Assembly: GCA_009760855.2 (NCBI GenBank)
Contig: WPIO01000019.1
Coordinates: 3,483,501 to 3,547,500 of the forward strand
Source of the DNA: Cristatella mucedo
Lineage: Eukaryota > Bryozoa > Phylactolaemata > Cristatellidae
Length of the DNA stretch: 64,000 bases
Direction: 5' to 3'
Below are positions 5,021 through 59,300 of this stretch, one piece after another (positions within the stretch are counted from its first letter, which is position 1; every line of letters begins with the position of its first letter). A program made the position numbers and the translations under genes. A model generated the notes under the pieces. That model was not told where the DNA came from and ran no database searches. It saw only the letters and a program-made list of their open reading frames with translations.

Positions 5021-5034
5021 TCGTGTATAGTCTG

Positions 5035-6178
5035 GTTCTTTTCGTGGTTTATGCTCTCACTCTTGCCGATGTGATTGCCAAGCACAATCTAGGCTTTCAT
5101 TTCTATGCGGGTGACACTCAGTTGTACCTTTGATTTGATCCCTCCCAGACCTCGAGCACGTCGAATTCTCTCAACTCCATCGCTGCATGTATCGATGACA
5201 TCTTCTTAAATTGAATGATTATAAAACTAACTTACTAGTTATGGGCAAACCAAGTGTGTTTTAGAAATTGAAAAGACTAGCGCTCAAAATCGGCTCTGCC
5301 AGCAAATCTCCTGTTGAATCTGCACGAATTCTAGTTGTCGTGTTTAAAAGTGACTTTTCGTTATGCGACCACATTAGCTCCACAATCAAGTCTACTTACT
5401 TTTTTCAGCTACGTAAAATTGCTAAAATTTGGACTTGCTTAGATAGGGATACGACATCTAAGTTGGTCCATGCACTAGTGACATCCCGTCTTGCCTTCTG
5501 TAACTCACCGCTTGCTGGTCTACCGGCCTGTGCAATCAGGTGCTTACAGCTGGTGCAAAACTCTGCAGCCAGGCTTGTCTGTTGTGAGCGTCGCAGTTTT
5601 CACATCACACCACTTCTCGCCGAACTGCATTGGCTACCAATCAAGCAACGGATCGACTTCAAGGTTGTGTCGCTCACGCTTAGGTCGCTTCATTCTTTGA
5701 CTCCAACGTACCTATCAGATCTACTCCCCCACCTGGCCAAGCATTGTTAAATCTACTTTTTGGAATCTAACTGTTTACCTATACCTCGTACAAACCTCAA
5801 ATCCTTTGGAGACCGTGCCTTTAGTTTGTTTGCTCCCAAAGCCTGGAACTCACTTCCGACTTGCGTCACGAAATTCCCTGACTTGACCACATTTAAAAAG
5901 AAATTTAAAACGCACCTATTTACGGCCGCATTTAGTGGGTCCCTGTGATTCGTCCTTCATGTGCTTATGCGTGCTGGCACTGTTGCATGCTGCCACTAAC
6001 CACACTTGCATGCCGACCCTGTGCATGTCACCCCTAACCATGTTATTCATGTTGTTTATCAATCATGATACCACTCACCATTCGATCGTGTTTCCGTATG
6101 CAGCAAATGTAAAGCGCCTAGGAAGAGATTGCGTTCTTTGAGGGCGTTTTATCAAGTGCATTATTATTACTATTAGTT
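5035..6178 (+). mobile_element. L2-type LINE, 5'-truncated and decayed
   Basis: Starts inside the reverse transcriptase (frame reads LADVIAKHNLGFHFYAGD, where the catalytic YADD has become YAGD). It continues through the C-terminal domain ([46 protein letters not shown]) and the tail gtaaagcgcctaggaagaga with an ATT run. In-frame stops and frameshifts make it a dead copy. It has the layout of the CR1/L2 superfamily. Confidence 0.92.
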
Positions 6179-11247: not shown

Positions 11248-12616
11248 TCTTGCTGTTCAATCCTGCGGCTCGTGGCAGACATGGCTCCTTCGAGCAAATG
11301 GCAGACCCTCTGGTTAAGGTCCGCGCTGAGCTAGATTTTTTGACGAATTTAGTTTTTTTTAAAGAATTCGCCGTGTTCTGAGCAATTCCTCCTCCGAAAA
11401 CTCAAATCAGCAAATCATTGGATCGTTTCATATTCAATTTGGGCTCAGTTTTTCTGCTGTACATATTTTGGTCCATCTTTTAGTCAAGTCGCATTCTGCT
11501 TTATTGGTTTAGGCAGACTTTCTATAGGACAAATATGCAGCAATCGTTCGGAGTTACAAAGTGATCTGCAGGAACCAACGTCGTCACAAGTCCTAACATG
11601 ATTTGAACGAAACAACCTGAATTCTAACATGAATTAACATGAACAAAATTAATTCTAATACTATAATCTAACTTTAATTCTAACGCTGTATTCTAACCTA
11701 GCATGAATTCGAACTCCGTACGCAATGTGCTGGACGTTCGCTACAGCACTATTGATTGCTCATCTGAATTAAGCGACGTCTCGTCACTACTCAAATCACT
11801 TCCTGAAAAAATTCATCATTAACGCGCTGAAATTTTCCCGCTCTCCTCATTCTTTGTTATTTAACAGCATTTTGTAGCAATATTATCCAGCTCCAAACCT
11901 CAGTTTCTTATGTGTAGGCGTGTCCTAGGGAAGTCGTGCCCATCTCGAATACCAAAACTGTTCGCAACAAGCAGCCAGCACTTTTCCTGTACAGACGACA
12001 ATCCTAGGACTCATTGCAAAGCATTTGTCTGCTTTCTCTGACCATAATTCCAGCTCATCCTTTTAACTTCTTATCTTTTAACTGGCTTAATCGATCGAGT
12101 CAGCTGTTAGTCTCTCTGTCTCCTGTCTCCGCACTGCTTAAGTCAAGTTGCTATTTCCTAAAGTCAAAACAGAGTGGTTGGAACTCTGGCTCAATTTGCA
12201 ATAGCTGCATGGTTATTGGAATGGGAAGAATACTGGAGCCATCTGTTGTCGAGGCGGTGGTCGAAAGTATTATTGGAGTCATTGCGTGTGGAACTGCAGC
12301 CATCAGCCGTGTCATCATAAACTCCCTGGTAGTTTCATGAACGTCTGCTCGTGATGTAAAGATGGGATGGACGCAGTTTTGGTACATGCGAACGCCATGC
12401 AGTGACCGTGAACTGAAGCTCCAGTCGCACCCTACCAATGTTCATAAGGCGATCAATCGAATGGCAATAGATCTCAACGATCGCAAGTTAATGACAATTT
12501 GGTGAATCGATATGATTATAATAGATCGCCACTCCAGTACTGACCACACCAAATGCTTACAGTCGATGCAACTCATAACTTCCCTTTGGAAGTGCTAGCA
12601 ACTTGCAGTCTTGTCT
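11248..12616. other. no gene seen; AT-rich
   Basis: Contains near-repeats of a short motif (attctaacatgaattaacat) around 11590-11710. A frame at 12014-12340 is hydrophobic and AT-driven, with no splice or family support. Confidence 0.4.
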
Positions 12617-12793
12617 AAAAAAATACTAGCTGATTTAACAGCCTCTTTTTGTATAGCGACAGAAGAGCCTTTACGGCTATCACCACCGCTTTCGGTGACG
12701 ATAAAGGATCGCCCACCATAAGATTCGAACCCACGACCTCGCTGACGAGGTCGTGAAAAGCAACCGCCTTACCTAGTGTGCCATCACGGCGCC
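12617..12793 (-). repeat. SINE1 copy
   Basis: Minus-strand order: box A (TAGGTAAGGCGG), a hairpin CACGACCTCG-ctga-CGAGGTCGTG, box B (GGTTCGAATCT), the cctttatcgtc block, the ggtgatagccgtaaaggctc core and gctgttaaatcagctagt, ending in a T run. It is tRNA-derived by its pol III boxes. Confidence 0.88.
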
Positions 12794-19053: not shown

Positions 19054-19414
19054 AGCTAATCTCCTATCAAAACCAGCGAGAGTAATTTATTGCTTTCAGA
19101 TGAGCAGCAGTGTGCATACTTACTTGCCCCAAATTCAACGTCGGCTTGTTTTTTTTATTGCCAGTGCCATGTCTTTTCGACTTTTAAAATAAATTCGAGG
19201 CGCTGCCTTACATGTAAACCTTTGACGTAGGTCCAAGGTCATGACACATCTAAGCGCTAGCTCCTTTTCTAGTACCCTAGCTGCGGGCATTTCTTAATCG
19301 CCGTCCGATGATAGGCAGCGTGCTTTACGCAGCTAAGCTTAGTGAACGTCCACTAAAATCATCTTAATAAGCTGCGGCGACTGATAACTAAATGCCTGAG
19401 GTCATGCCTTAGAG

Positions 19415-19596
19415 CAGTGGTTCTCAAACTGTGGGTCACAACCCCTTTGGGGTCGAACAACCCTTTCACAGGGGTCACCTTAAGATCATCGGAAAACACA
19501 CATTACCACATTTCGCACATAAGAATTTTATGGTCGGTGGTCGCTACAACATGAGGAACTGTATTAAAGGGTCGCGGCATTAGAAAAGTTGAAAAC
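19415..19596. mobile_element. hAT-superfamily non-autonomous element, SPIN/Charlie-like
   Basis: The left end CAGTGGTTCTCAAACTGTGG runs into ggggtcgaacaaccctttca and caggggtcacc. The right part has acatgaggaactgtattaaa, then gggtcgcggcat and an eroded reverse terminal repeat (gttgaaaac). These blocks are those of short non-autonomous hAT elements I know from tetrapod genomes (SPIN/URR1 type). The flanks CCTTAGAG (19407-19414) and CCTTGAG (19596-19602) look like a decayed 8-bp target duplication, as hAT elements make. At ~180 bp it has no transposase. Identification is from memory of the family ends. Confidence 0.85.
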
Positions 19597-19889
19597 CTTG
19601 AGGCATCCATCCGATCGACGTCGTCCGATTTCCTTAACCAAATTGACGATAAAAACCAAAATCCTCGTAGAAAACACTAAGCGCAGTTTGAAGAAGTGAA
19701 AAGGCCACAAGGCCTCTAGAGCTGCCTAGAAGTATGGCTTTGAGATTGGTTAGTAAATCCAAGAAACTCGGCAATTCACCTTCTTTCCAAAGCGAGCGAG
19801 CGAGATGACTCCCGGGTGATCAATGGATACAGAGCTGCTTCTACTCTGAATCCACAAGATAGGCAATGGAGTGGAAGGACCTTCATGCC

Positions 19890-20240: not shown

Positions 20241-20319
20241 GCCTTGAGCAAGATGTTCGCAGTCGGGCGACCGAAACACGTCTGGAGCTGCCCCACTCCG
20301 TCGTGTCTTGGCGGCTATA

Positions 20320-20497
20320 ATAAAAAAAATACTAGCTTATTTAACAGCCTCTTTTTGTATAGCGACAGAAGAGCCTTTATGGCTATCACCACCGCTTGCA
20401 GTGGCGATAAAGAATCGCCCACTGCAGGAATCGAACCCTCGACCTCGATGCCGAGGTCGTGAAAAGCAACCGCCTTACCTAGGGAGCCATTACGGCT
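20320..20497 (-). repeat. SINE1 copy
   Basis: Minus-strand pol III box A and box B, a hairpin over gacctcg/cgaggtc, the tttatcgcc block and the gctgttaaataagctagt end followed by T's. Structure as at 12617. Confidence 0.85.
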
Positions 20498-22245: not shown

Positions 22246-22857
22246 AAAACTTGGCTTCAGGATAGCGCAAACCCACAAAAGTCTTTTAAAATTTACTTTC
22301 TAAACAGCTCGTTAGGTCCGCAACGCCGGGATTACTTAAGAGCAATCAAATTTTATGACACGCTCATCGTGGTTCCAGATAAAGAAACAGGCATTATGTG
22401 AGACGTGCTAAAACGCTTTTATGAGCAACTGAGATTAGGGCTCAAATTGAGCTTTAGGTTTTGACGAATTTACGTTACTTGCACACGCGTCTCAAATGGT
22501 CACTTGCAAGTGACATTTTCTCAAGTAAATAGTATATAGACTTCACGTGAGGCTTTTATTTGAAGGCAATTATTGCAAAGTCATCCTTAGAGCCAGATCA
22601 GTAGGAGACTCTTAACGACGTCGATAAGACTCGACCATTTTGGTGCATGTGCAGAAATCATACGTATCACACATTTGTCTTTACGAAAACAAGTCGGTGG
22701 TTTAGGAAAGACGCTGACTACCCGATTTGTTGCAAGTTATCCTGAAAATTCAAATTCTGCTGACAACTTTTCAAATTATTTGCAAATCGAAAAGGGCTGC
22801 CAACTCTGCCGTCACACGTTTGTCGCATTTTCATACTGCTTTCAAGGATTGCTTTAA

Positions 22858-23612
22858 CATTGCTAAAATTCGGGCTTTTTTAGACAGGGATACCGCGGCT
22901 AAATTGGTCCATGCATTTGCGATATCCCGTCAAGACTTCTGCAACTCTGTAACTTCTGTAACTGCTTGCTGGTCAACTGACCTGTGCACTCAGGCGTTAA
23001 CCGCTGGTGCAAAACTCTGCAGCCAGGCTTGTCTGTCGTGAACGTCGCAGTTGCCACATCACACCACTTCTCGCCGACCTGCAGTGGCTCCCAGTCAAGC
23101 AACGCATCGACTTCAAAGTTTTGTCGCTCACTTTTAGGTCCCTTCATTCTTTGGTTTCAGCCTATCTATCATATCTACTACCCCACCAGGCTAAGCATCG
23201 CTTTTCGGAATCTAACCGTTTACCCATACCTCGTACAAATCTCAAATTATTTGGAGATAGTGCCTTTTGTTCGTATGCTCCCGAAGCCTGGCACTTACTC
23301 CTGGCTTGCTTCACGATTTGTCCTGACTTGTCCTTACTTAAAAAGAAACTAAAAATGCATCTCTATGACAGCACTTAGTGGCGTCCCTGTGATTCGTTCT
23401 TTATGTGCTTATGCATGCTGATACTGTGCGTGCTGCCACTAACCAAATTGGCATTCTGACCCTGTGCACGTTACCCCTAACCATGTTATTCCTGTTGTTT
23501 TGTTGAGCACGCTACCACTAACCATTCGATCGTGTTTCCTGTGTAGCAAGTGTAAAGTGCCTAGAAAGAGCTCCTCAGAGGGTGCTAGATAGGAAATGCA
23601 TTATTATTATTA
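22858..23612 (+). mobile_element. L2-type LINE, 5'-truncated
   Basis: C-terminal ORF2 region with frameshifts: the block AKLVHAFAISRQDFCNS, then [20 protein letters not shown] and [19 protein letters not shown]. The 3' UTR contains gtaaagtgcctagaaagagc and ends in an ATT run at 23600-23612. A dead copy. Confidence 0.88.
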
Positions 23613-24188
23613 TCAAGCAAACCACTGGTTGTATGCAGTCTCTTCCACAGATATTTTTACATGAACTAAATCGACAAATTCTAGCTACTCGAAGGCGTAT
23701 CTAATCTAAGGAATATTACCTTACCAACACACAGCGACGTGGGTGCGAAGCTGACAGGAATCTGTTAGCAATACGTAAGTCTTGATGTAATCACTGAAAA
23801 CGCCATAGCGGTAAACCACAAAGCTTCTCCAGAGGTCTTCTCAAGAGATATCATCCAACGCGAATGACATTCAATTCTTGATTAGAACCGAAATTAAACA
23901 CCACCTTTTGCCAGTACTGGGTTCGGATAGTGCTACAATTAGCCAAGGCTAATCAGTACCAAGCACCAACAGCAATCACACGTCTGCATACGATCCACTC
24001 CCATTGTATAACAGCAATTCTAGCGTTCAGCAGTACGTTTCGGATCTTGATCGATTTCATTCTTAGCCTGGGCGTTACTCCTCACGCTTCAGTTCATAAA
24101 TGCACCGTGCCGGCCTACTTTAGCCAGCGCGATTGGTCTAAGCTAAAGAAGCACTTGAGTTCTTCAGTACCATTCAACTACTATTTAG
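23613..24188. other. no gene seen upstream of the 24.26-kb ORF
   Basis: AT-rich. One 90-codon frame at 23930-24202 on the + strand has no recognisable motif. The frame of the 24261 ORF is closed by a TAG just upstream of 24190. Confidence 0.4.
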
Positions 24189-24260: not shown

Positions 24261-25070
24261 ATGGCCTCTTCAGCGACCACTCTGTCCAAGCCCGTGCAAA
24301 CCAGATTCTGGCTAACCGTAGAACCGGAATGGATCGAAGCGTACGTAAGCACAAACCGCCTGGCTTCGCCTGGAACTGTTACTGCCACTGCAGCATCAGC
24401 CCTTTTCCTTCTGGCAATGTGCATCGGCTGGCTGAAAGCCGTTGTAGGTGCCACTTGCTGTCCCTCAGTGGGTAGCTGGGGATTGTGCCTCTTCCGAAGG
24501 CATCACAGAATACCAAACTATTATGAGTGGTGGCTCCAAGAATCGCCAGTTGAATACGATACAGAAGGCGAGCCAGTTCATCCCGTTTCCTTACAGAAGG
24601 TGGTTCGCACTATGTCACATCGAAGGGAATTTGTTTTAAACTTGTTATTCTGCTTCTATGCACCGTTTGTGGCCATCCACTGGACGTACATGCATAGTCA
24701 GGCATATCTCAAACGAAATTTATGGAGCAAGTATAGGAATAAGCTACTGTTCTCATCGGATGCAGTCCTGGGCCCTAGAGCCCGACAGAGGCTTCTACAT
24801 GGAGACCTGAACAAGCAACCTCATATCAATGAAGATTCGGTTGCCATCCTCATAGCACACTATGACCTAAAGGCCAATCAGCCAAACAAGGTTTTATCGC
24901 CTGAGTCTACAACATACTTAACAGCTCTGCCCGAGCTCATAGCAGTCGGAACTAACAAACCAGGATTGTCATCAAGCTACAATCTTGCCCACGTAATCCG
25001 TAAGTATAGAGATAGTAAATTACGGCTAAAACAGAAACATAGGCACCATCTCCAGCTTCAAAGCCAATAA
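24261..25070 (+). CDS. unidentified 269-aa protein with two hydrophobic segments
   Basis: The longest ORF here that is not a repeat or LINE. It starts at ATGG (context cctctcgATGG) and ends in two consecutive stops. Residues ~39-62 (ALFLLAMCIGWLKAVV core) and ~124-142 (FVLNLLFCFYAPFVAIHWTY) are likely membrane segments. Between them lie a Cys-rich patch (C66, C67, C76) and the aromatic stretch NYYEWW near 87-91. The C-terminus is basic and His/Gln-rich. I recognise no family. It converges with LSM1 with ~870 bp between stops. It may be a single-exon gene, one exon of a larger gene, or part of an unrecognised element; smaller + strand frames follow at 25082 and 25466. Confidence 0.45.
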   Translation: MASSATTLSKPVQTRFWLTVEPEWIEAYVSTNRLASPGTVTATAASALFLLAMCIGWLKAVVGATCCPSVGSWGLCLFRRHHRIPNYYEWWLQESPVEYDTEGEPVHPVSLQKVVRTMSHRREFVLNLLFCFYAPFVAIHWTYMHSQAYLKRNLWSKYRNKLLFSSDAVLGPRARQRLLHGDLNKQPHINEDSVAILIAHYDLKANQPNKVLSPESTTYLTALPELIAVGTNKPGLSSSYNLAHVIRKYRDSKLRLKQKHRHHLQLQSQ

Positions 25071-29100: not shown

Positions 29101-32100
29101 CGAGATATTGTGCATCACAGCAATTGCATCAAGCACTTACTACCTAGTAGAGAAAAACCTATCTGACCGAAATCAGACATTTTTCTATAATCATGGAAAG
29201 CATAGGTGTACTTCCATTTCAATTTTCACCCTGATATGTGAAGTATTCGCCAGTTAGGAAATGTAAAAGGCACTAAGCTACATTGAAAATGAGGCTATAT
29301 AAAAGACACAAGAATCCTCAACAACTTCAATCAACATCAGCAACAAAATACTAGCTGATTTAACAGCCTCTTTTTTGAACAGCAGCAGGAGAGCATTAAA
29401 GGCTATCACCACTGCTTGCAGCAGCAATTAAGGACTGACCACGGCAGTATTCGAACTCACGACCTCGTGACAGAGGTCGTGAAGAGCAACTGCATTACCT
29501 AGTGCGCCATTACGGCTCACCGTAACTAGCGTAAGAAGCTTTATGCATGTATCTCGATCTACCAAAGTTCAACAAATTAGGATACAGTGCATGCATTCAT
29601 CATGCATGAGAAATAAAAAAGTAAGATTCGAACCCTTATGCCTCAAAAGACGAAGAATAAAAAATTTGACTACAAGATAGCACTGCCTCACATTGCACAT
29701 TAGGGCAAATATAGGGGCATACGAACGGTGGCAACATTGGGAACTAAATAATTCAGGCAAATTAAAAGAGTGATCACCAATTAAATCCAGGAAATAAACA
29801 GAAATACAAGCAACTGATATTTTGACTGGCTAAAATGCTCACATGCTACCCCTAAAATTGATGCCCAAACCAAAGCAGCCACAAGAAATGCAATGAGAAA
29901 TGCGCCCGTAAGCAGCTTCTAAGCACAAGTGTTTCCTAAAAATCTTGCGAGCGATAAGCATGCCCAATTTCGGCCAAATACGTTCAAAACAGTTGTTTTT
30001 CAATGCTGACCCAGTAAATAACCATGCACCAGAGCCGTTAGCCCAATTCATAGTAAGTAATGCCAAACTCCCTCAATGGGTAACACAACAACGTAGCAAC
30101 GACTGAGCTACTTATGATGCCAACCAGAAACCTCAAACGAATGGGATACAAAGACAGTACTGCAGCTGATAGGGGACCTGACCTTTTTCCCAAACCCGGA
30201 GAGCTAGGCGTACATGATCTTGTGGCATAAACATTTTACATTATACTCCATGTCATATTGATCATTTGCACGGTTTATAAAGTTATCTACATTTCCTATG
30301 TATACAGTTGGATCAGATGACTGCCCGTGAACCTGATGGATCAGATTAAAACCCGTGAACCTGAGCATGCTAACAGAAATGCAGAGCACTCATTTGCCAG
30401 CTGACGAAGCAAACCAGCACCACTCAAAGTGACACGTGGTTTACGCATGCCTGGCACTGCCGAGACTTAGTCAAATCCAACTCACTGCCGTGCATGTGCC
30501 GAAGCAGGACCAAATACCGATACAGCATTGTCTTCTCTTTCTAAGTATAGATCGAATTCCGTCACAGCTTTATGTGCTTATGATAGATGCTTTATGCTAT
30601 ATGTGCTTTAGACTGCCGATTCAACCACTTTAAATTTGTTTACATGCATATCTCATAACACGGAATTCACCCACAGCAGTAGCCATCAAAAATGCTTCGC
30701 ATACGCATTGCTACAGACCATATGAAGAGCCAAGCCTCCTAATCCAACCTCATGCTAAGAATGTCTTATCAAAAGGAATTGGGTTTTATTGCCGTTTAGC
30801 GGAAGAAAATCGACCCACATCCAGGATCGAAAGTCTGAAAGGCAGGCACTCAGTTTATCGGTTGCTGAAGCTGACTCCGATGGTTTAAATGACAAGTAGA
30901 AATGGGTAGCATCAGCATACAAGTGCCACCCTGGTTTGGCTCAGGGGTTAAGGTGCTGGCCTTTAACGACCAAGGTCGTGGGCTCGAGCCCTGAGGCACA
31001 TATGAAGCACCTGGGTATAGATTAAGTTCTATTAAGGCCATACACAATTTAATGTTTTGTTTTTTTAAATTTTTATAGCCGATTCTATGGGCCCAGATCA
31101 CTTTTCCGAGTGGCTGGGTATAAATGGTGAACAGAAAAAGACCATGAACTGACCCTTGTTAAACTCCACAAGTGCCGGGCCTGCTGGACTAGCCATTAGA
31201 CCTCTGCAATCATCATGATAACAATGGTTACTGGTAATCCGACGAGCCTACAAAGTATGGAGTACCCAAGGATCTGTTCCGTGTCTACCAAAGTTTACAA
31301 TCCATACTGCCTCTCTCATCGATGCCATCGCCAAGAACATCATTGGCTCTCTACACGCACGGGTGACACTCAGCTCACCCAAACATTGAGCTTCACTGCC
31401 TTCAAGAAATTAGTACTCTCACCTTTCTTACACCTTACACTGCCGACATTAGTGCTCGGACAGCAGCTAACTTTTTAAGCTTAACGATGACAAGACCAGA
31501 CTATTACTGTGGACAAACATAGAATCTCTTTGAAACTGGAAAGACCCAGCCCCAAGATTTGGCTTAGCCAGAATATCTCTTAACCCCCCCCCCTCCCGAT
31601 TGAACTCTGGACGTCCTATTAAATACGACCCTTCTTTGGATGACCGCAAAGATGTTTTCACATGAAGTTATCACAGACAAATTGGGTCGATGCATTTATG
31701 ATATCCCGTCATGACTTCTGCAACTCTTGACTCCCAGGGTTTAAGGGCCACGATAGCCCAGGAAGTAAGGTGCTCTTCACGACCGAGGTCGCAGGTTGGA
31801 ATCCTGCAGTGGGTATTCTTTTAATGCCAACTGCAAGTGGTGGTGATAGCGGTTAAGGCTCTTCTGCTGCTAGACACGCGAGACTGTTAAATCAGCTAAT
31901 ATTTTTCTTGCCTTTGCAATAACATACAGATGTGCATACACAGGCATCGATTTGCTGCTGTCCTGCATAGCCAACATAATAAATATGCCCTTAGTGTTAG
32001 GTTTTGTCCCTGCAATTTTCAAAAAAAGCTGCTGTTAGGCCACTCAGAAAAGGCAACAACTGACCACACAAACTTGAGCAACTTCCACCAATCTCCCAAC

Positions 32101-36674: not shown

Positions 36675-37300
36675 CTATGACGAAACATGTACTCTGTAGT
36701 CCCGGTTACAAAGGCAAAGAAAACCTTTGATGAAGCTGTTGATAGATGATCTTTGTCCATTCACGTCAATATTCTGGAGTCTCCCACTGAGATAGGACCT
36801 GAACCACTGCAGAGCAGTGCCAGTGATGCCCAGGCGAGATGAGAGGCACTCTAGAAGAACTTTGTGAGTATCAAAAGCTGCCGAAAGATCGAGCAAAACA
36901 AGCAGAGACACTCTACCCATGTCTGCATTCCTAAGTAGGTCGTTGTATACCCTAAGCAATGCTGACTCTGTGGAGGGATTAGCTCTAAAGCCAGACTGGA
37001 ACTTACTAGCAAGGTGTGAGGTTTCGATATATGAGTTCAGCTGGTCTGCCACGACCCGTTCCAGTGTCTTTGACAAGAATGGTAGAAGGGAGACTGGGCG
37101 GTAGTTGCTTAAGTTCTCTTGATCTAGTATCGCTTTCTTGAGAAGTGGCCTGACTACAGCTTTTTTGAAAGGTGCTGGGACATGACCTGAGGCTAATGAC
37201 ATATTAATGATGTTAGTTATGCATGGCAGCAGCAGATCAATGCAACGTAGGAGCAGGACAGTGGGAATAGGGTCCAGAGGACTTGTTGTCTTCTTTGATT
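36675..37300 (-). mobile_element. LINE reverse-transcriptase fragment (CR1/L2 superfamily)
   Basis: An open frame of 175 codons covers the RT fingers and palm: NLSNYRPVSLLPFLSKTLER, FQSGFRANPSTESALL, LVLLDLSAAFDT and GITGTALQWFRSYLSGR. The AAFDTxDH motif has lost residues (AAFDTHKVLL), and the fragment stops before the YADD box, so it is dead despite the long frame. It lies in the LSM1-P5C reductase spacer. Confidence 0.9.
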
Positions 37301-38735: not shown

Positions 38736-49754
<11,019 letters not shown>

Positions 49755-50363: not shown

Positions 50364-53300
50364 CTGTAGCACAGAAAAGGCCACACAGCTTGAAGTAATA
50401 TATTGAAGTGGCAATAACATCTCGTAGCAACCACTAGAGCAAAATATAAATAATTGAATTTATACAGTGCATTTACAAGGCCCGTGCCTGCCTTGCTTGG
50501 CTTCACCAAGTTGATCGTTCTATCAAAGAAGGCAAGTTTGCCCAATGAACGGAATGGTATTTCAAGCTAGGAGCTGAAATGAAAAATTGTCTCTGCTATT
50601 TTCCAAGGGACTACTGGGCCGGATAAAGCAGTCAAAATATAAAATTGCTGTACAGTGATTTTTAGCTTAATAATTTTTATCCAATAATATTCACAACAGC
50701 CTTGAGGCACTAAACTTGTCGATATTTGTTGCCCACTGAAATAATTTCACTCAACACCCTCAGCTATGCACACAAAATGACCACTGACTGACTCACAATG
50801 GTAGGTAGCTAGGCTGCCGGAGATGCAGGCTGGAGGCTACGCACACAGATATACATATGCGGGCGGTTGAGAAAACAGAACACCGGTCACCACTAACCTG
50901 TGAGATCGGGAGTGTGGACAGCTCTGCTGGTAGTTCCACATCGCCATCAGCAGCTACGTCCATCGGCCCGTCCTCCATGCTCTGAGCAGACTGCTCATTT
51001 ACAGGCACGCGGTCCGACGTCTTCTTCCTCTTTTTAAGAGGAGCAACGTCAGGCTCTTCACTTTCCGTTGCCTCAAGAGGTGCTGCTGCAGGCTGCCCAA
51101 TTGACTCATCTTGTTCATCATCCTGTGGACTACTCTGATCACCAGCATCCTCAAACGTGTCTGCAACGCCTGAAAGAAAACACCGAAACGGTCACGAGGG
51201 CCCAATCACACAACACACTACCGTGCATGGCAGCCGCCATAGCACTGCCTTACAACCTGAAGCGTCGCGAGCCATTTCGGGTGGTGAGCCAGGAGAAGCG
51301 GTGGCAGCAGGATGGTCCACTGTACTAGCCAGCTCTTCATCGTCGTCCGCACTTGCTCGTATGGCAATGTTCCTCACAAAAAGCTAAACGGGTAAAAGAA
51401 AAATACAAAGCCCTAACAGGTGGTCGGTAGTGTAGGGATTGCATGACTAGCCATATGTAAGAAGTAGATTTACCAGAAAATAACGTCAAGTCGCAAGCAT
51501 AGACAGTCAAGGCTATGGCTACTTTGCCATAGTCGGTAACAGTATACCACCAGAAACACCACTAAACAACTCAGAAAGACGAGACTCTGCCAAAACTAAT
51601 GCTAAAATGTATCTCTAGAGCTCCAAAGTGCAATAAGAAGCTATTCATGTAAGGCAACTCAAACCAGCAATAGTTAACAATGTCTGTAATCTTACAGGTT
51701 TCGTCCGTGCAAAGACACGACGACACATAACATCCCCAAAGCCGAAGCAACAAGCATAGTCTTCTTAATATATTAAACGAGGTTGGTTAGTATCTTCCCT
51801 ACCTATGCAACTAGTGGCCACAATAAGAATATATCCAAAGATGTAATTAGAATGCCTGCTATCGATTTTAGTGCACCAACTTACTCGTTTTCCGGCTCCT
51901 TGCTTTAGAAAATAAATAGTAATCTCACTCACTCTGGCCCCTTTCAACCGCTCCAAATCAACTTGCAATGCAACGAGTTATAACATGGATATATATAAAT
52001 ATATATATAAACTGTCTTAACATGCTATAAAACGACCTATTATTATAAAGACACATTTGCCCGGAAGTGACTACACAAATATTTAGCCACTGGCCACTAA
52101 TCATTTTGCAGATTCATTTACCTACACCGAAACAGACTGTTCTTGGAGTGACATGTGACTGCAATTAGACTTTCACAAGCATGCTTGTTCAAGTGGTCAG
52201 AAAAATTTATCACGTACGAGGTGGCAGAGGTGAACAGTTCCAGTTGACGTTCACACACACATGACTTTAAAACTATTACCGGACACTAGTCCAGCTGAAG
52301 TCATGCAACATTCAAGTCAGTATTTCAGAAAGATAAGTCTATTTATAGTGTATGTAGCCTGGCATCGTTAGGACCCGGTTTCAAATACACCCTTGTGGGA
52401 CAGCCGAGTTTGTTCAGTCCTTAAGCTACATTAAGGCGCCTGCGACGGTTGGAAGGATGACCCAGTTATTTTGGCAATTTAGCTCAATTTTGGTCAGCTT
52501 TAGTAGATTGAAACAAGAATTCTCTATTTTCACTACTGTCCTTTTTAACTGCCCACTTAAGCTCCGACTCAACTGGGCATTCCGGCTCTAATGCTGAGCT
52601 ATGGTCTATCAAGGCGCCAAATGGGAATTACAATAACTTTGGCTGAATTGCTTTTAGCACGCGATCTCTCACTATTACCGGCAGATGAATAAGTGCTACT
52701 TACAAAAAGTTTTTTGGCTTCACGGCAAGGTGGCAGCAAATTATATATCGTTTTCAGCAGCATCATTTTCAGTACCATGCTATCAGTATGCACGTTAGCA
52801 CTAACCAATTGACATGCTTCCTTTTCAGCCCCTGCAAAGTGCCTAGAAAGAGATTTCGATCTCTTAGAATTATTTACAAATGTCTCATTATTATTGCTAT
52901 TATTATTACGAAATGCCATAAGAAAACTGGATAAACCATGATCCATACTATTTAGGTACTGGTGAGCCGTAATGGCTCACTAGGTAAGGCGGTTGCTTTT
53001 CACGGCCCCTAGGTCGTGGGTTCGAATCCTGCGGTGGGCGATCCTTTATCGCCACTGCAAGCGGTGGTGATAGTCGTAAAAACTCTTCTGTCGCTATACA
53101 AAAAAGGCTGTTAAATCAGCTATTCATTATATTATTGTTATTATTTCTAGCAAACCATTTACTTAAGTATATCATTACATGCATGATCTTGGGTGGTTAT
53201 TTAAAAGAACTACTTAGTGACTTTTAAGACCGACCCTATTCCATCCACAGCTTTATATTTACATGCACTCGCAGTACAGCCCCCTCGCACCTATTAGCCG

Positions 53301-56300
53301 ATATATAGAAAACATAGTATGATCCTCTGATCTCCACCAAACTGCAATGAGATTCGGCTTGGCTAAAAACAGTGACATGCTATAGATTATACGAACATAA
53401 CCAAAGTCGACCTGCCAGCATTCCAGATCCAAATGATACGAATGGTAACACTGAATTCACATCATGTACACACTCTTTGGTGGAAAGCTTTTTATAATCT
53501 GCTGAGTTAAAACAACTAGTGCATGCGACTTAACCAGTGCAATAGGTGCCTTCTCAACGTATCTGTCGTTCCTTTGCAGATCGAACGCAGAATTAACAAA
53601 CATCGAAAAAACTAACGTCTGTACAAAGAAATAAACAGTAAAAGTAGTAACTATCACCAACACACTTTGTGTGATGTTCAAATTGAGCCATAAACTGTAC
53701 CCCTTTCTACAGAACACTGCAAAAACTCAAAAATGACATTTGGAAGATCCAGGGCCACTTGAACCATGCTTCAAATTAAGAAAAAACCTGGGTGTCACTT
53801 CCGATGCTGTCCAAGATCTCAGTATTCACCAGCTATCCCTGCACTTTGATCCGTCCATCGGATCGGTCGATTGTCAAACTCCTAAACTGACTTAGTTGGC
53901 CAAGCAACCAGAGCCCAAAGCCTAAAAGCTTACACAAATAAGTTCATATCTGATGCATCCAAAACTAAACGAATCGGCTATTTACCTTGGAGAGTGCTTT
54001 TGATGACAGAGGCCTCCCAGGCAAAGTAAATAACTTGTTGACACCACCAGTCTCTTTCCAATGTAGCAATCGCTTGGTTGGTGGTGCAAGATCAAGTGTC
54101 GTTACAATATCAACAGTGTCTGACAGTTGAGACTTCATGGCATCACTGGGAATGCTTTTGTCTGAATCAACAATCAACTTCCTTTTACGCTTGGGTCGCC
54201 TCTCAGTTCCTGAAAAGCACGGAAATACGGCCATACATAACCAAAAATGCCACAGCTACGCAATTCGGCTGCCTGGCATGTAAGCTAGCTAATATACAAT
54301 GACATAACCAGGGGTGCAGGTTCTATTGAAAGAGTAAGCCACACATGCAAGCAATTTCTAAAAAAAATCATGGGTGCTAACACCCATGCAAAGAAAGTAC
54401 TATATGTAGCCACCAGACTGCTCCGATGATTTACACTTACCAAAGGTCGACAGATAGTGCAAACTCAATTTTCTTGACATTTCGAGATGACAATTTCATT
54501 CACAGATTTCTATTTAGCCATCTTTTCATTGTTATGTGAAAACAACTGTGACAAAGAAGTCTAACAAGATTTCACCTGGCATTGAAGTGACATCTAGAGG
54601 CTCCAAAGCAAAAGCTTCTTCCTCATCAGTGACTAGCGTCGTCTGATCAATGGTGCTGGGTTGAACAGCTGAAACAACACTTGCCTCGGGTGGTTGAATA
54701 TCTGCAATAAGGAGAAAACTCCTTAAGCATCACTAGATTACAAAAAGGTAAGTATTTTAAAGCATAAGCACAAGGATTGAGCCTACCGTCGGCATGGGTC
54801 CCCTCTTGGTGGCCGTGTGTAAGTTCTTCGGTAATATCCGGTACGGCAGACACTTCATGAGGAGCAGTCTCAAATAGGTGTCCTTCCATGAAATCATTGT
54901 CTGCAAATGATTTTTATCAAGAGAATTTCCACCGAATATTACATGCACTAATACTGATAATAAATCTACATAAGTTGAAAAAACTCCTCTCTGGAAATCT
55001 TACTGAAAAGCACATAAATTAGTTGCTGAATAGATGCACAATTTGAGTATGCATAAGCACACAAAGTACTACTCAGACTGACGAAGCAAACGCTCTGAGC
55101 TATTGGTGGGTTTTTAGCTTCTTGGCATCTTGCGCTTATGACAAAGAGAGCGCAACCTACCAACTGTCTTGTCACAAAGAGATCGCTATTAAGGGTTGTA
55201 CCTAAAAGGCAATTCACAATAAGGCAGCCGTCGTTAAGGTAACAAAATAGGACAAGACTGGCAGCGGACAGTGTAAAAAAAATGCTAGCTGATTCAACAA
55301 CCTCGTTTTGTATAGCGACAGAAGAGCTTTACGGCTATCACCACCGCTTGCAGTGGCGATAAAGAATCGCCCACCGCAGGATTCGAACCCACGACCTCGG
55401 GGCCGAGGTCGTGAAAAGCAAGCACCTTACCTAGTGAGCCATTACGGCAGTGTAGCTCTATATAACAGTGGTAAACCGCATGCATCTAACTGTGTAAAAC
55501 ACTGTTCCAAACACGGTGAAAATGTGCCAAGACACCAGCTTAATATTTGTAAAACAACTTTCTGTTGAGCCATATAAAAGGAGAATAATACTCAATTCAA
55601 GGCAACACTAATGAAAGTCTTACTGAGTCCTTCGTCACCAAATCCATCGTCTCCTGGAGCCTGAGCTAAGTCGACCTCCATGCTCTTCTCAGTTGCCAAA
55701 GAAGTCTTGGACGGTTCAACAGACACAGTGATTTGAGCAACGTCTGAGCTTCTAAAGAGAGAATCCTCTATGTTGGATGCATCCCTGAGAATCTCACGAT
55801 CATCAAAACCAAGATCGCCTGAAAAAATCGCGTGAAACGTAGTATGTAGTCGGAAATATGTTGAAGAAGCATTATGGAAATACTAGAAGTGAGGAGAGCT
55901 TACCGAAGCCATCGTCCGGAATAAATGAGACATGGCCTAGGTCTTCTTTCATAGTTATTTCTTCGGGGCGGCTCTGATTGACAGAGAACTTAGCTTGTAC
56001 CTCGTTCATGCTGAAAAAACCAAAACAAACAGTATAGTGGCTAAATATGTGCACTAAATGCACACATCGAAGATACAACATTAGAACACCATCTGAGTAA
56101 TAAAAGGTTAATATATATATAATGGTAATATTATTAACAAGACATTTTTATTGCACCATAAGTACCGAATATTTCTAGTCTCTTTAAATTCGCCAAAAGT
56201 AATCATAACAATAAGTTAGCGATACAATCCACCGTGTCAACATGTATAAGCTCACAAAGGAGAACTCGGCAAGGATAGAACAAATGCTTCGAGAAAGTGA

Positions 56301-59300
56301 GAGAATGACGCAAGGTCAGAAGGGAACGACTTCCAAGTTTTTGAGCAAGCAAACTGGAGGCATGGTTTCCAAAGTACCTAAGGTTGGTTAGAGGCAAAGC
56401 AAAGTGCGTAGTGTCAGAAGTGTAGGAGGTATAGTGCAAGGCCTCATTAAAAATATTGTGTATAGGTAGGCCAGAGCATGACAATGAAGGGACATTAGAG
56501 AGAATGAAAGAATCTTGATGTCAATATGCTGCTGGATAGTGAGCTAGTTCAGGTTGGTGCGAATTGATGCAACGTGGCGATTGAGATGTTCACGACAGAC
56601 AACCCAAACTGCTGAGTTCTTCAATAACTTAATGTGCCTTACTGCACAGGACCTGGGAATAGTGAGTCACGGAAGTCGAGACGAGATGTCACCAAAGCTT
56701 GCTTTGTTGTGGTATGCCCACATATTTTCAATGGTACATAGCTGACAGTAGGTAGAGTTGACAGAGGAGCTGATGCAATCTTCTAGTGAAAGGTCATTTT
56801 GAAACAGGACACCCAGATTGCAGTTGATATTTACATACTGATGTAAACGCCCCATCCGACCTATCGCATAAGTAGTGCTGCCGGTCAGGCTTGATGATGG
56901 TAGTACATACTTCTGAGTAAATATTGCATTGCATACTAACGTCCTAGTGTTATATTAAAGTTCCAGTATTGTCTAGTGAATAGCATTAGTACAGTACAGC
57001 TTGTAACCATTAAAATTAAACAATATTATGAAGCAAAATAACTTGTAGGGCACTATATTATCCATAGCTAAGAGTCAAGAACATTTCTGTACAAATAGTT
57101 AGTAGGGCCTTTGGTACTTACTCCACTTCGAAGTCGGCAAAATTGGTGTCAAAATCATGAAAACTCTCAGGTAAGGTGACAGCAGCAATAGCAGCCTCCC
57201 TGTTGTTCTCAGGCAGATCAACAGCATCTGGACGGAAGGCCATTTTAATCTTAACGAATGCTTCGTTGCAATCCGTTAGAAGATACTTAGCTTTCCGTGA
57301 ATAGATCCTGACCACTCCTAGCAGCAGATGACCCGATGTTCTCAGGGCCATTTTAACCTAAAATTAAACACTTATGTAAAGACATAACAGGCAAGCTAGC
57401 AAGCCTATATAGCAAATGAAGGACCAGTTATTCTAAATAGTTGTGGGCATACCTCTAATGCTGTGTAGTGAATTTGACTTGTTCGACATTAACGATTATG
57501 CAAACCATTTTCACTCAAAAGAATGGCACGTGCCAAAGAAAACCCTTAAGGATTCTCTCGGATATGTAAAAAAAAATACTAGCTGATTTAACAGCCTTTT
57601 TGTGTAGCGACAGAAGAGCCTTTACGGCTGCCACCACTGCTTGCAGTGGCATTCGTGACATCCCGTCTCGACTTCTGCAACTCACTGCTTACTGGCCTAC
57701 CAGCATGTGCGATCAGGCGATTGCAGCTGGTGCAAAATAACTTGTAGGACACTAACTCTGCAGCTAGGCTTGTCTGCCGTGAGCGTCGCAGTTGCCACAT
57801 TACTCCACTTCTCGCCGACCTGCACTGGCTACCAGTCAAGCAACGGATTGACTTCAAGGTTTTGTCGCTCACTTTTAGGTCCCTTCATTCTATGGCTCCA
57901 GCCTATCTGTCAGACATACTACCCCATCAGGCCAAGCATCGTACCACCCACTTTTCGGAATCCAACAGTCTAGAAATACCTCATACAAACCTTAAATCTT
58001 TTGAAGACCGTGCATTTAGTTCATATGCTCCCAAAGCCTGGAACTCCCTCCCGACTTGCGTCAGAACATCCCCTGACCTGACCACATTTAAAAGGAACTT
58101 AAAAACACACCTATTTAGGACAGCATTTAGTGGGTCCCTGTGATTCGTCCTTGGTGTGCTTATGCGTGCTGACACTGTGCATGCTGCCACTAACCACGTT
58201 TGCATGCTGACCCTGTGCATGAGCCGTGATGGCACACTAGGTAAGGCGGTTGCTTTCACGACCTCGGTCCCGAGGTCGTGGGTTCGATTCCTGCAGTGGG
58301 CGATTCTTTATCGCCACTGCAAGCGGTGGTGATAGCCGTAAAGGCTCTTCTGTCGCTATACAAAAAGAGGCTGTTTAATCAGCTAGGATTTTTTTAACCA
58401 TATTATTCATTTCGTTTGTTTTTCAAGCATGATTTTACTTACCATTCAATTGCATTTCACTTTACAGCAAATGTAAAGCGCCTAGAGAGAGATTAAGTTC
58501 TCTGAGGGCGTTTTATCAAGTGAATTATTATTATTATTATTAATAAAGGATCGCCCACTGCAGGATTCGAACCCACGACCTCGGGACCTCGGTCGTGAAA
58601 AGCAACCGCCTTACCTAGTGTGCCATCACGGCTCACCAATATACAGGTAAGCTCACACGGTAAAGACAAAAACGGGAGAAATTCATTTGACAGCTGCATG
58701 CAATTAAGTCATTACTGCACCAGCTATGGTGCATGCCTTAGCAAGAGTGCCTTCTTTCCGGAAAAGGCATTTTCGACTATTCCTTACAGCGCAAAACTAC
58801 GTCTGAAGATACTTTGAGTACAAAGTATACCTTCAGAATCTGCCTGCACCTAAAGAGAAAATCAGGACAGCAAAGAGTTTTGATACACTAATCACTACGA
58901 TTGGCTACGAAACATGTAGCACTCAAAAAAAGGATACCCACAAAGAATCAGAGGTACACATCATGGGACTACCTGGGACCAGTAAGTGGTACAGAGAAGT
59001 GAAGAACATACCCGAGAAACCAAGTAGCAGCATAATTAAAATAAAAACAATGCATTTGCATATCACCCTATCTCTTTCAAGGCACTTCACATGGGCTGGA
59101 AATGAAGAAAGGAATGGCACACGATTACGGTAAAGGCAATAACAACATCTAGCAATTCAGGATAGGCTTAGCTCATGATCACAGGCAACCAGAACATTCA
59201 GCAGAGAAGACTGAAAGATCCCATACACCCTAATACACATGAAGCATGTCACATACAAAGTTAGTTTCATTGTTGTTCGTGATACCAAACAATGCTATAT

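Follow-up and report, generated by a model that had tools for sequence, protein, structure and literature searches.

The window, by which we mean the whole stretch of 64,000 nucleotides that was analysed, covers positions 3483501-3547500 of contig C110 in an assembly of 572,011,866 bases (572 Mb; 688 contigs). At 19415..19597 it carries a SPIN-type non-autonomous hAT element, which has lost its 3′ terminus and is 88.2% identical to the 187-bp consensus of its family in the same genome (164/186 aligned columns); this element and its parts all lie on the forward strand. The 8 bp immediately upstream, CCTTAGAG at 19407..19414, represent the 5′ copy of a target-site duplication, with a central TA as in nnnTAnnn. 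They are followed by the 5′ terminal section (19415..19499), comprising the terminal inverted repeat (TIR) and subterminal sequence, where the family consensus equals a provisional SPIN consensus over the first 85 bp. The 3′ terminal section (19521..19597), with a decayed 3′ TIR at its end, corresponds to the part of the family consensus that equals the provisional SPIN at 80/81 of the last bases. The 3′ target-site duplication has left the remnant CCTTGAG at 19596..19602, with one base lost, though its CC could be part of the element instead.

The 5′ TIR reads CAGTGGTTCTCAA in the window copy and CAGCGGTTCTCAA in the family, and the 3′ TIR reads GTTGAAAACC as compared to GTTGAGAACCACTG. As the window copy ends with ...GTTGAAAA(CC) at 19595-19597, whereas the family ends with ...GTTGAGAACCACTG, its last bases have been lost. 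It is also the most diverged of the 40 copies aligned in this study (K2P 0.131) and, decayed and without its 3′ terminus, it is probably unable to move now. Its terminal repeats did not exceed those of shuffled sequences in local-alignment score (1889/2000 shuffles scored as high), which is uninformative because the 3′ end is damaged. Likewise, the single-strand fold of the element was not stronger than that of shuffles (z 0.71 for the whole element and -0.79 for its 5′ part), and we therefore claim no structural role for it. The flanks had been read as an 8-bp hAT duplication, but CCTTAGAG and CCTTGAG match only if one base is missing. An equally loose match occurred by chance in 1098/200000 random flank pairs (0.55%) and in 413/63000 pairs at the same spacing, so that the duplication of this copy, taken alone, is suggestive only.

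The window contained no second copy of the element. Several other repeats were present, among them a ~180-bp repeat in six copies that are 77-92% alike (12616-12790, 20316-20497, 29342-29519, 52963-53145, 55274-55457 and 58222-58402); by eye it looks like a tRNA-derived SINE, and ARAGORN reported no tRNA gene. A LINE fragment with a match to the reverse transcriptase domain RVT_1 lies at 36675-37202, a dispersed family that is LINE-like by eye at 5030-6175, 41863-43025, 22855-23613 and 57649-58221, and a repeat pair of 94% likeness at 40535-41004 and 44133-44602. Exons of a pyrroline-5-carboxylate reductase gene were located at 46007-47218, with a further exon, judged by eye, extending to ~47655. 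An open frame of 269 aa at 24261-25070 had no Pfam match at E <=0.001 and no match to a PDB sequence at E <=1.

Copies, insertion sites and host genome

When the genome was searched with the element, all 40 scored sequences (the best 40 of 1929 first-look candidates) matched. The 39 copies other than that of the window were 85-89% identical to it, mostly along the whole element, which showed that the sequence blocks quoted in the first-pass annotation, present where it had placed them, were not a product of chance. A majority-rule consensus of these 39 copies, aligned with the window copy, is 187 bp long, starts with CAGCGGTTCTCAACC and ends with GAGAACCACTG. Its termini match at 12/13 positions when one of them is reversed, and thus form the short terminal inverted repeats of a hAT element. 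At <=2 mismatches, a 31-base pattern of the 5′ end had 686 matches in the genome, a 33-base pattern of the 3′ end 663, and an internal stretch of 33 bases 533, with none for any of the three reversed patterns; the family is therefore by no means a single copy. Exact matches, counted by eye, numbered 62, 68 and 54, respectively. A binomial model yielded 1,942, 1,638 and 1,335 copies from the 5′ end, the 3′ end and the internal stretch at a divergence of 9-11%, and from this simple model we infer a total of some 1,335-1,942 (~1,300-1,950) copies.

The 40-copy sample consists of best BLAST hits and is skewed toward window-like copies; the mean K2P of the 39 others was 0.065. We took the age figure from a sample of 20 copies instead, picked by their exact 5′ end only, in list order from the 62 exact matches, with one already-sampled copy omitted and ~3.2-3.3 kb of downstream sequence included. 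None of the 20 departed from the short form; L094 and L104 are truncated, lacking part of their 3′ end. Their mean K2P to the consensus was 0.104 over columns 32-187, and 0.102 without the two truncated copies. Outside the CpGs of the consensus, only one variant was found in >10 of the 59 copies, a T/C at position 100 in 24 copies, the next ones being present in 10, 7 and 6. Since position 100 is a CpG when C, this variant is probably itself a decayed CpG. The near-star pattern and the uniform short form look like the outcome of an essentially single burst in which one deletion derivative multiplied.

Target-site duplications were evident in the family as a whole. Among the 40 aligned copies, 11 had perfect 8-bp duplications and 11 more matched at 7/8 bases, while the other 18 had 0-6 matching bases in an ungapped count; the window copy is not among the 22. 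In these 22 good duplications, position 5 was A in 22/22 and position 4 was T in 19/22. Duplications of at least 7/8 bases were likewise present in 11/20 copies of the exact-5′-end sample. The family thus has both the 8-bp duplications of hAT elements and the nnnTAnnn form of the Buster clade. In PMC3499496, nnnTAnnn is given as the duplication of TcBuster, and SPIN is counted among the Buster family. Together with the short terminal inverted repeats, the duplications corroborated the earlier assignment to hAT; the claim that the flanks fit an 8-bp duplication can be upheld for 22/40 copies of the family, and for the window copy only with CCTTGAG one base short.

Family copies were spread over many contigs, the majority with lengths in the megabase range. 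For 23/59 copies (counted by eye), the flanks had matches within the window, chiefly in its dispersed repeats. To look at the sites of insertion, the flanks of 39 copies were joined; the 20-copy sample dropped out, its 5′ flanks being too short. In 10/39 copies (L009, L010, L017, L029, L030, L032, L033, L039, L041 and L045), the joined flanks matched an uninterrupted stretch across the join, either in the window or at other loci of the same genome. A base-by-base inspection of five joins gave identities of 85.6% (L033), 81.2% (L029), 79.3% (L045), 76.7% (L032) and 72.6% (L010); the joins of L029 and L045 fall within the window LINE bearing the RVT_1 match. As the copies sit in repeats of the same genome for which uninterrupted paralogous sites exist, they were inserted into this genome.

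The host itself is an invertebrate, as judged from its mitochondrial code and from mosaic CpG depletion, in line with what had been supposed from the window. Read with the invertebrate mitochondrial code, COX1 on contig C688 forms a single open frame of 517 aa. In this frame, 7 AGA and 4 AGG codons (11 AGR) stand for Ser, 12 ATA for Met, 15 TGA for Trp and 2 AAA for Lys; of the readings of AGR (Ser, Gly, Arg), the formal test covered Ser. In vertebrate mitochondria AGR is a stop. This contig (L108) is mitochondrial, and its genes, named by eye, run cox3-atp6-cox1-nad3 along a single strand; fragments of COX1 on C166, C549, C299 and C83 have the appearance of mitochondrial insertions in the nuclear genome. 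In 4-kb blocks of the window, the observed/expected ratio of CpG was 0.88-1.03 in 1-24 kb, where the element lies in a block of 1.03, and 0.97 at 36-40 kb, as compared to 0.56-0.61 at 28-36, 40-44 and 56-64 kb. This suggests mosaic DNA methylation across the window. Such a mosaic is expected of invertebrates with gene-body methylation, and vertebrate DNA is unlike a ratio of 1.03. The arthropod cuticle domain Chitin_bind_4 (PF00379) had 0 matches in the genome, a weak result as no control genome matched either; the host is thus unlikely to be an arthropod. Equally weak, with no match in any control genome, were the 0 matches in the genome to the molluscan haemocyanin domain PF14830. The telomere repeats TTAGGG x5 and TTAGG x6 gave 0 matches each, which is uninformative on the host as the assembly may lack telomeres.

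Likeness to SPIN

As a reference for SPIN we used a provisional consensus of the non-autonomous element, of non-database origin and written down before the result of the own-genome search was available. The window copy agreed with this consensus in 163/182 aligned columns, at a local score of 176, whereas none of 1000 shuffles scored above 29 and none of 316 other window tiles above 26. The family consensus was closer still, with 180/184 aligned columns in agreement. The middle of the provisional SPIN is missing or different in the family consensus, which at 187 vs 223 bp is 36 bp shorter. At the 21 sites where the family consensus differs from the window copy, the provisional SPIN sided with the family consensus in 18/21 cases, and it was therefore not copied from the window. 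The ends and subterminal sequence of the family are what we take to be those of SPIN, judged by this provisional consensus.

The first-pass annotation had called the element SPIN/Charlie-like. Its SPIN part was supported by the ends, at 85/85 bases of the 5′ and 80/81 of the 3′ side of the provisional consensus; the Charlie-like part proved too broad. An identity with OC1 (OposCharlie1) was rejected, as a provisional OC1 5′ end of 32 bases had 0 matches at <=3 mismatches, with 0 for the control. Neither exact SPIN-type patterns, in viral contigs and in the contigs of bacterial and archaeal genomes, nor the element itself, by blastn in phages and plasmids, gave a match; these searches thus provided no stray copy from another host that could serve as a reference. 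A literature search for SPIN-type end sequences listed matches that were, by their titles, all on unrelated subjects.

Origin of the family and known relatives

Very probably, the element is a copy of SPIN from the Buster clade, whose forebear reached an ancestor of this host by horizontal transfer and gave rise to a 187-bp derivative that was amplified in trans and then decayed. In such a scenario, an ancestor of this invertebrate would have acquired a SPIN element, and an internal deletion would have produced the 187-bp derivative. SPIN transposase acting in trans would have bound the conserved ends, excised the element and multiplied the derivative, which would have been inserted by an 8-bp staggered cut at nnnTAnnn sites. 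Essentially one burst may thus have made ~1,300-1,950 copies, which would subsequently have decayed to ~10% divergence, with the window copy losing its 3′ terminus. We infer the action of the transposase in trans, as well as the transfer itself, its route and its date.

Conceivably, a SPIN-like element dates back to the ancestor common to this invertebrate and the tetrapods, with its ends kept by function. Indeed, transposase binds the ends of an element, and these are under selection while the family is active. However, the agreement with the provisional SPIN extends over ~165 bp of non-coding sequence, beyond the TIRs, and the mean K2P of 0.104 in 20 copies and the near-star pattern point to a burst far younger than the split. 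Since non-coding copies are ~10% from their consensus, near-identity to a tetrapod family has not been kept since the common ancestor. Vertical inheritance is therefore extremely unlikely, and horizontal transfer is the best reading of a burst too young for common descent with tetrapods, which sustains the earlier proposal of a horizontally transferred transposon. For scale only, a rate of 3.21e-9 per site per year would turn the mean K2P of 0.104 into ~32 My, the rate being that of marsupials and not calibrated for this host. This figure falls inside the range of 15-45 My to which the transfers of OC1 are dated in PMC3621081, which also gives the marsupial rate.

We also regard it as highly unlikely that the family is an unrelated hAT family of the host, the ends of which resemble SPIN through shared Buster ancestry, with no need for a transfer of SPIN. 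Short motifs are common to hAT ends, the comparison relies on a provisional SPIN consensus, and a separate hAT family in the same genome is very young. On the other hand, 180/184 aligned columns equal the provisional SPIN, with the first 85 bp unbroken, and the other young hAT family has entirely different ends, none of its 20 tested loci having a BLAST match to the SPIN consensus. The chance that vertebrate DNA contaminating the assembly accounts for the copies is negligible: SPIN is best known from tetrapods, but the copies occur, with matching target duplications, on numerous contigs that mostly reach megabase length. The block around the element, with a CpG ratio of 1.03, is unlike vertebrate DNA, and contamination is refuted by the flanks, which lie in repeats of this genome with uninterrupted paralogous sites. 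The earlier argument against assembly contamination was thereby strengthened, and chimeric flanks are excluded (10/39 joined flanks).

SPIN (SPACE INVADERS) reportedly comprises non-autonomous hAT elements of tetrapods, as is said to have been described by Pace in 2008 and by Gilbert in 2010 and 2012. With tetrapod SPIN, the non-autonomous form of which is ~190-220 bp long, the family apparently shares its ends, its length, TA-centred 8-bp duplications, a high copy number and an internally deleted form. Unlike tetrapod SPIN, it resides in an invertebrate, and no autonomous copy was found among the loci examined; its internal segment, with 36 bp less, deviates from that of the provisional mammalian form. 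SPIN also occurs in Lymnaea stagnalis. According to PMC11614815, SPIN is present in another invertebrate, Rhodnius prolixus, and was acquired horizontally from vertebrates. That species is a blood-feeding insect that also has OC1, whereas the present genome had 0 Chitin_bind_4 matches and OC1 was undetected by its provisional 5′ end. PMC5440852 describes a hAT element of Biomphalaria glabrata with significant identity to SPIN, ~1,000 copies and no intact transposases in the assembly. This too is a non-arthropod invertebrate with a similar copy number, but it is a different host; here the window has a GC content of 46%, and the molluscan haemocyanin domain gave 0 matches (weak, no control match). 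The match had been called unexpected, which in the light of PMC11614815 and PMC5440852 was overstated: the host is a new one for an already known invader. Finally, OC1_Das_NA of the Tasmanian devil is presented, in PMC3621081, as a homogeneous 192-bp family, thought to be an internal deletion, that arose in a single burst and was horizontally transferred. It thus resembles our family, for which a single burst and horizontal transfer are probable, but it belongs to OC1, a hAT family other than SPIN, and has 387 autonomous copies there.

No report of SPIN tied to this host was found in the literature searched, and we make no claim to a first report. It is possible, though rather doubtful, that SPIN has here entered an animal phylum outside Chordata, Arthropoda and Mollusca, with a host that has neither a blood-feeding link to vertebrates nor OC1. 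If true, SPIN would spread by routes beyond blood-feeding parasites, for example through shared water or shared viruses. Each new distant host of SPIN narrows how DNA transposons cross between phyla. With >1,000 copies, most of them in one short form and many between clear duplications, and with an assembly of long contigs that apparently contains SPIN without OC1, the time of the invasion, its source and co-transfer become testable.

Autonomous partner and a second hAT family

With the hAT dimerisation domain as query, 138 matches were listed in the genome, 63 of them at >=69 bits and 75 weaker. No SPIN end was found near the 17 of the 75 weaker loci that were examined, and none of the 20 end-selected copies was long; the check for an autonomous partner proposed at the outset therefore found none among these loci and copies. 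Such a partner may have died out, may be lacking, or may lie at one of the 58 remaining weaker loci.

The stronger matches included a second hAT family, at loci L048-L070 (e.g. L068:1165-4363, L069 and L070), with elements of 3.2 kb that have the ends TAGGGCTGTACCGG...CCGGTACAGCCCTA and encode zf-BED and hAT dimerisation domains. The 20 loci fetched from the >=69-bit set all belonged to this one family, which is unlike SPIN. As autonomous partner of SPIN it was rejected, since its ends are entirely different and BLAST aligned none of the 20 loci with the SPIN consensus. Among the 63 matches at >=69 bits, 16 had open frames of 635-642 aa. Locus L053 was 98.96-99.86% identical to the 19 other fetched loci; this very young family was probably active recently and is possibly another horizontal arrival.
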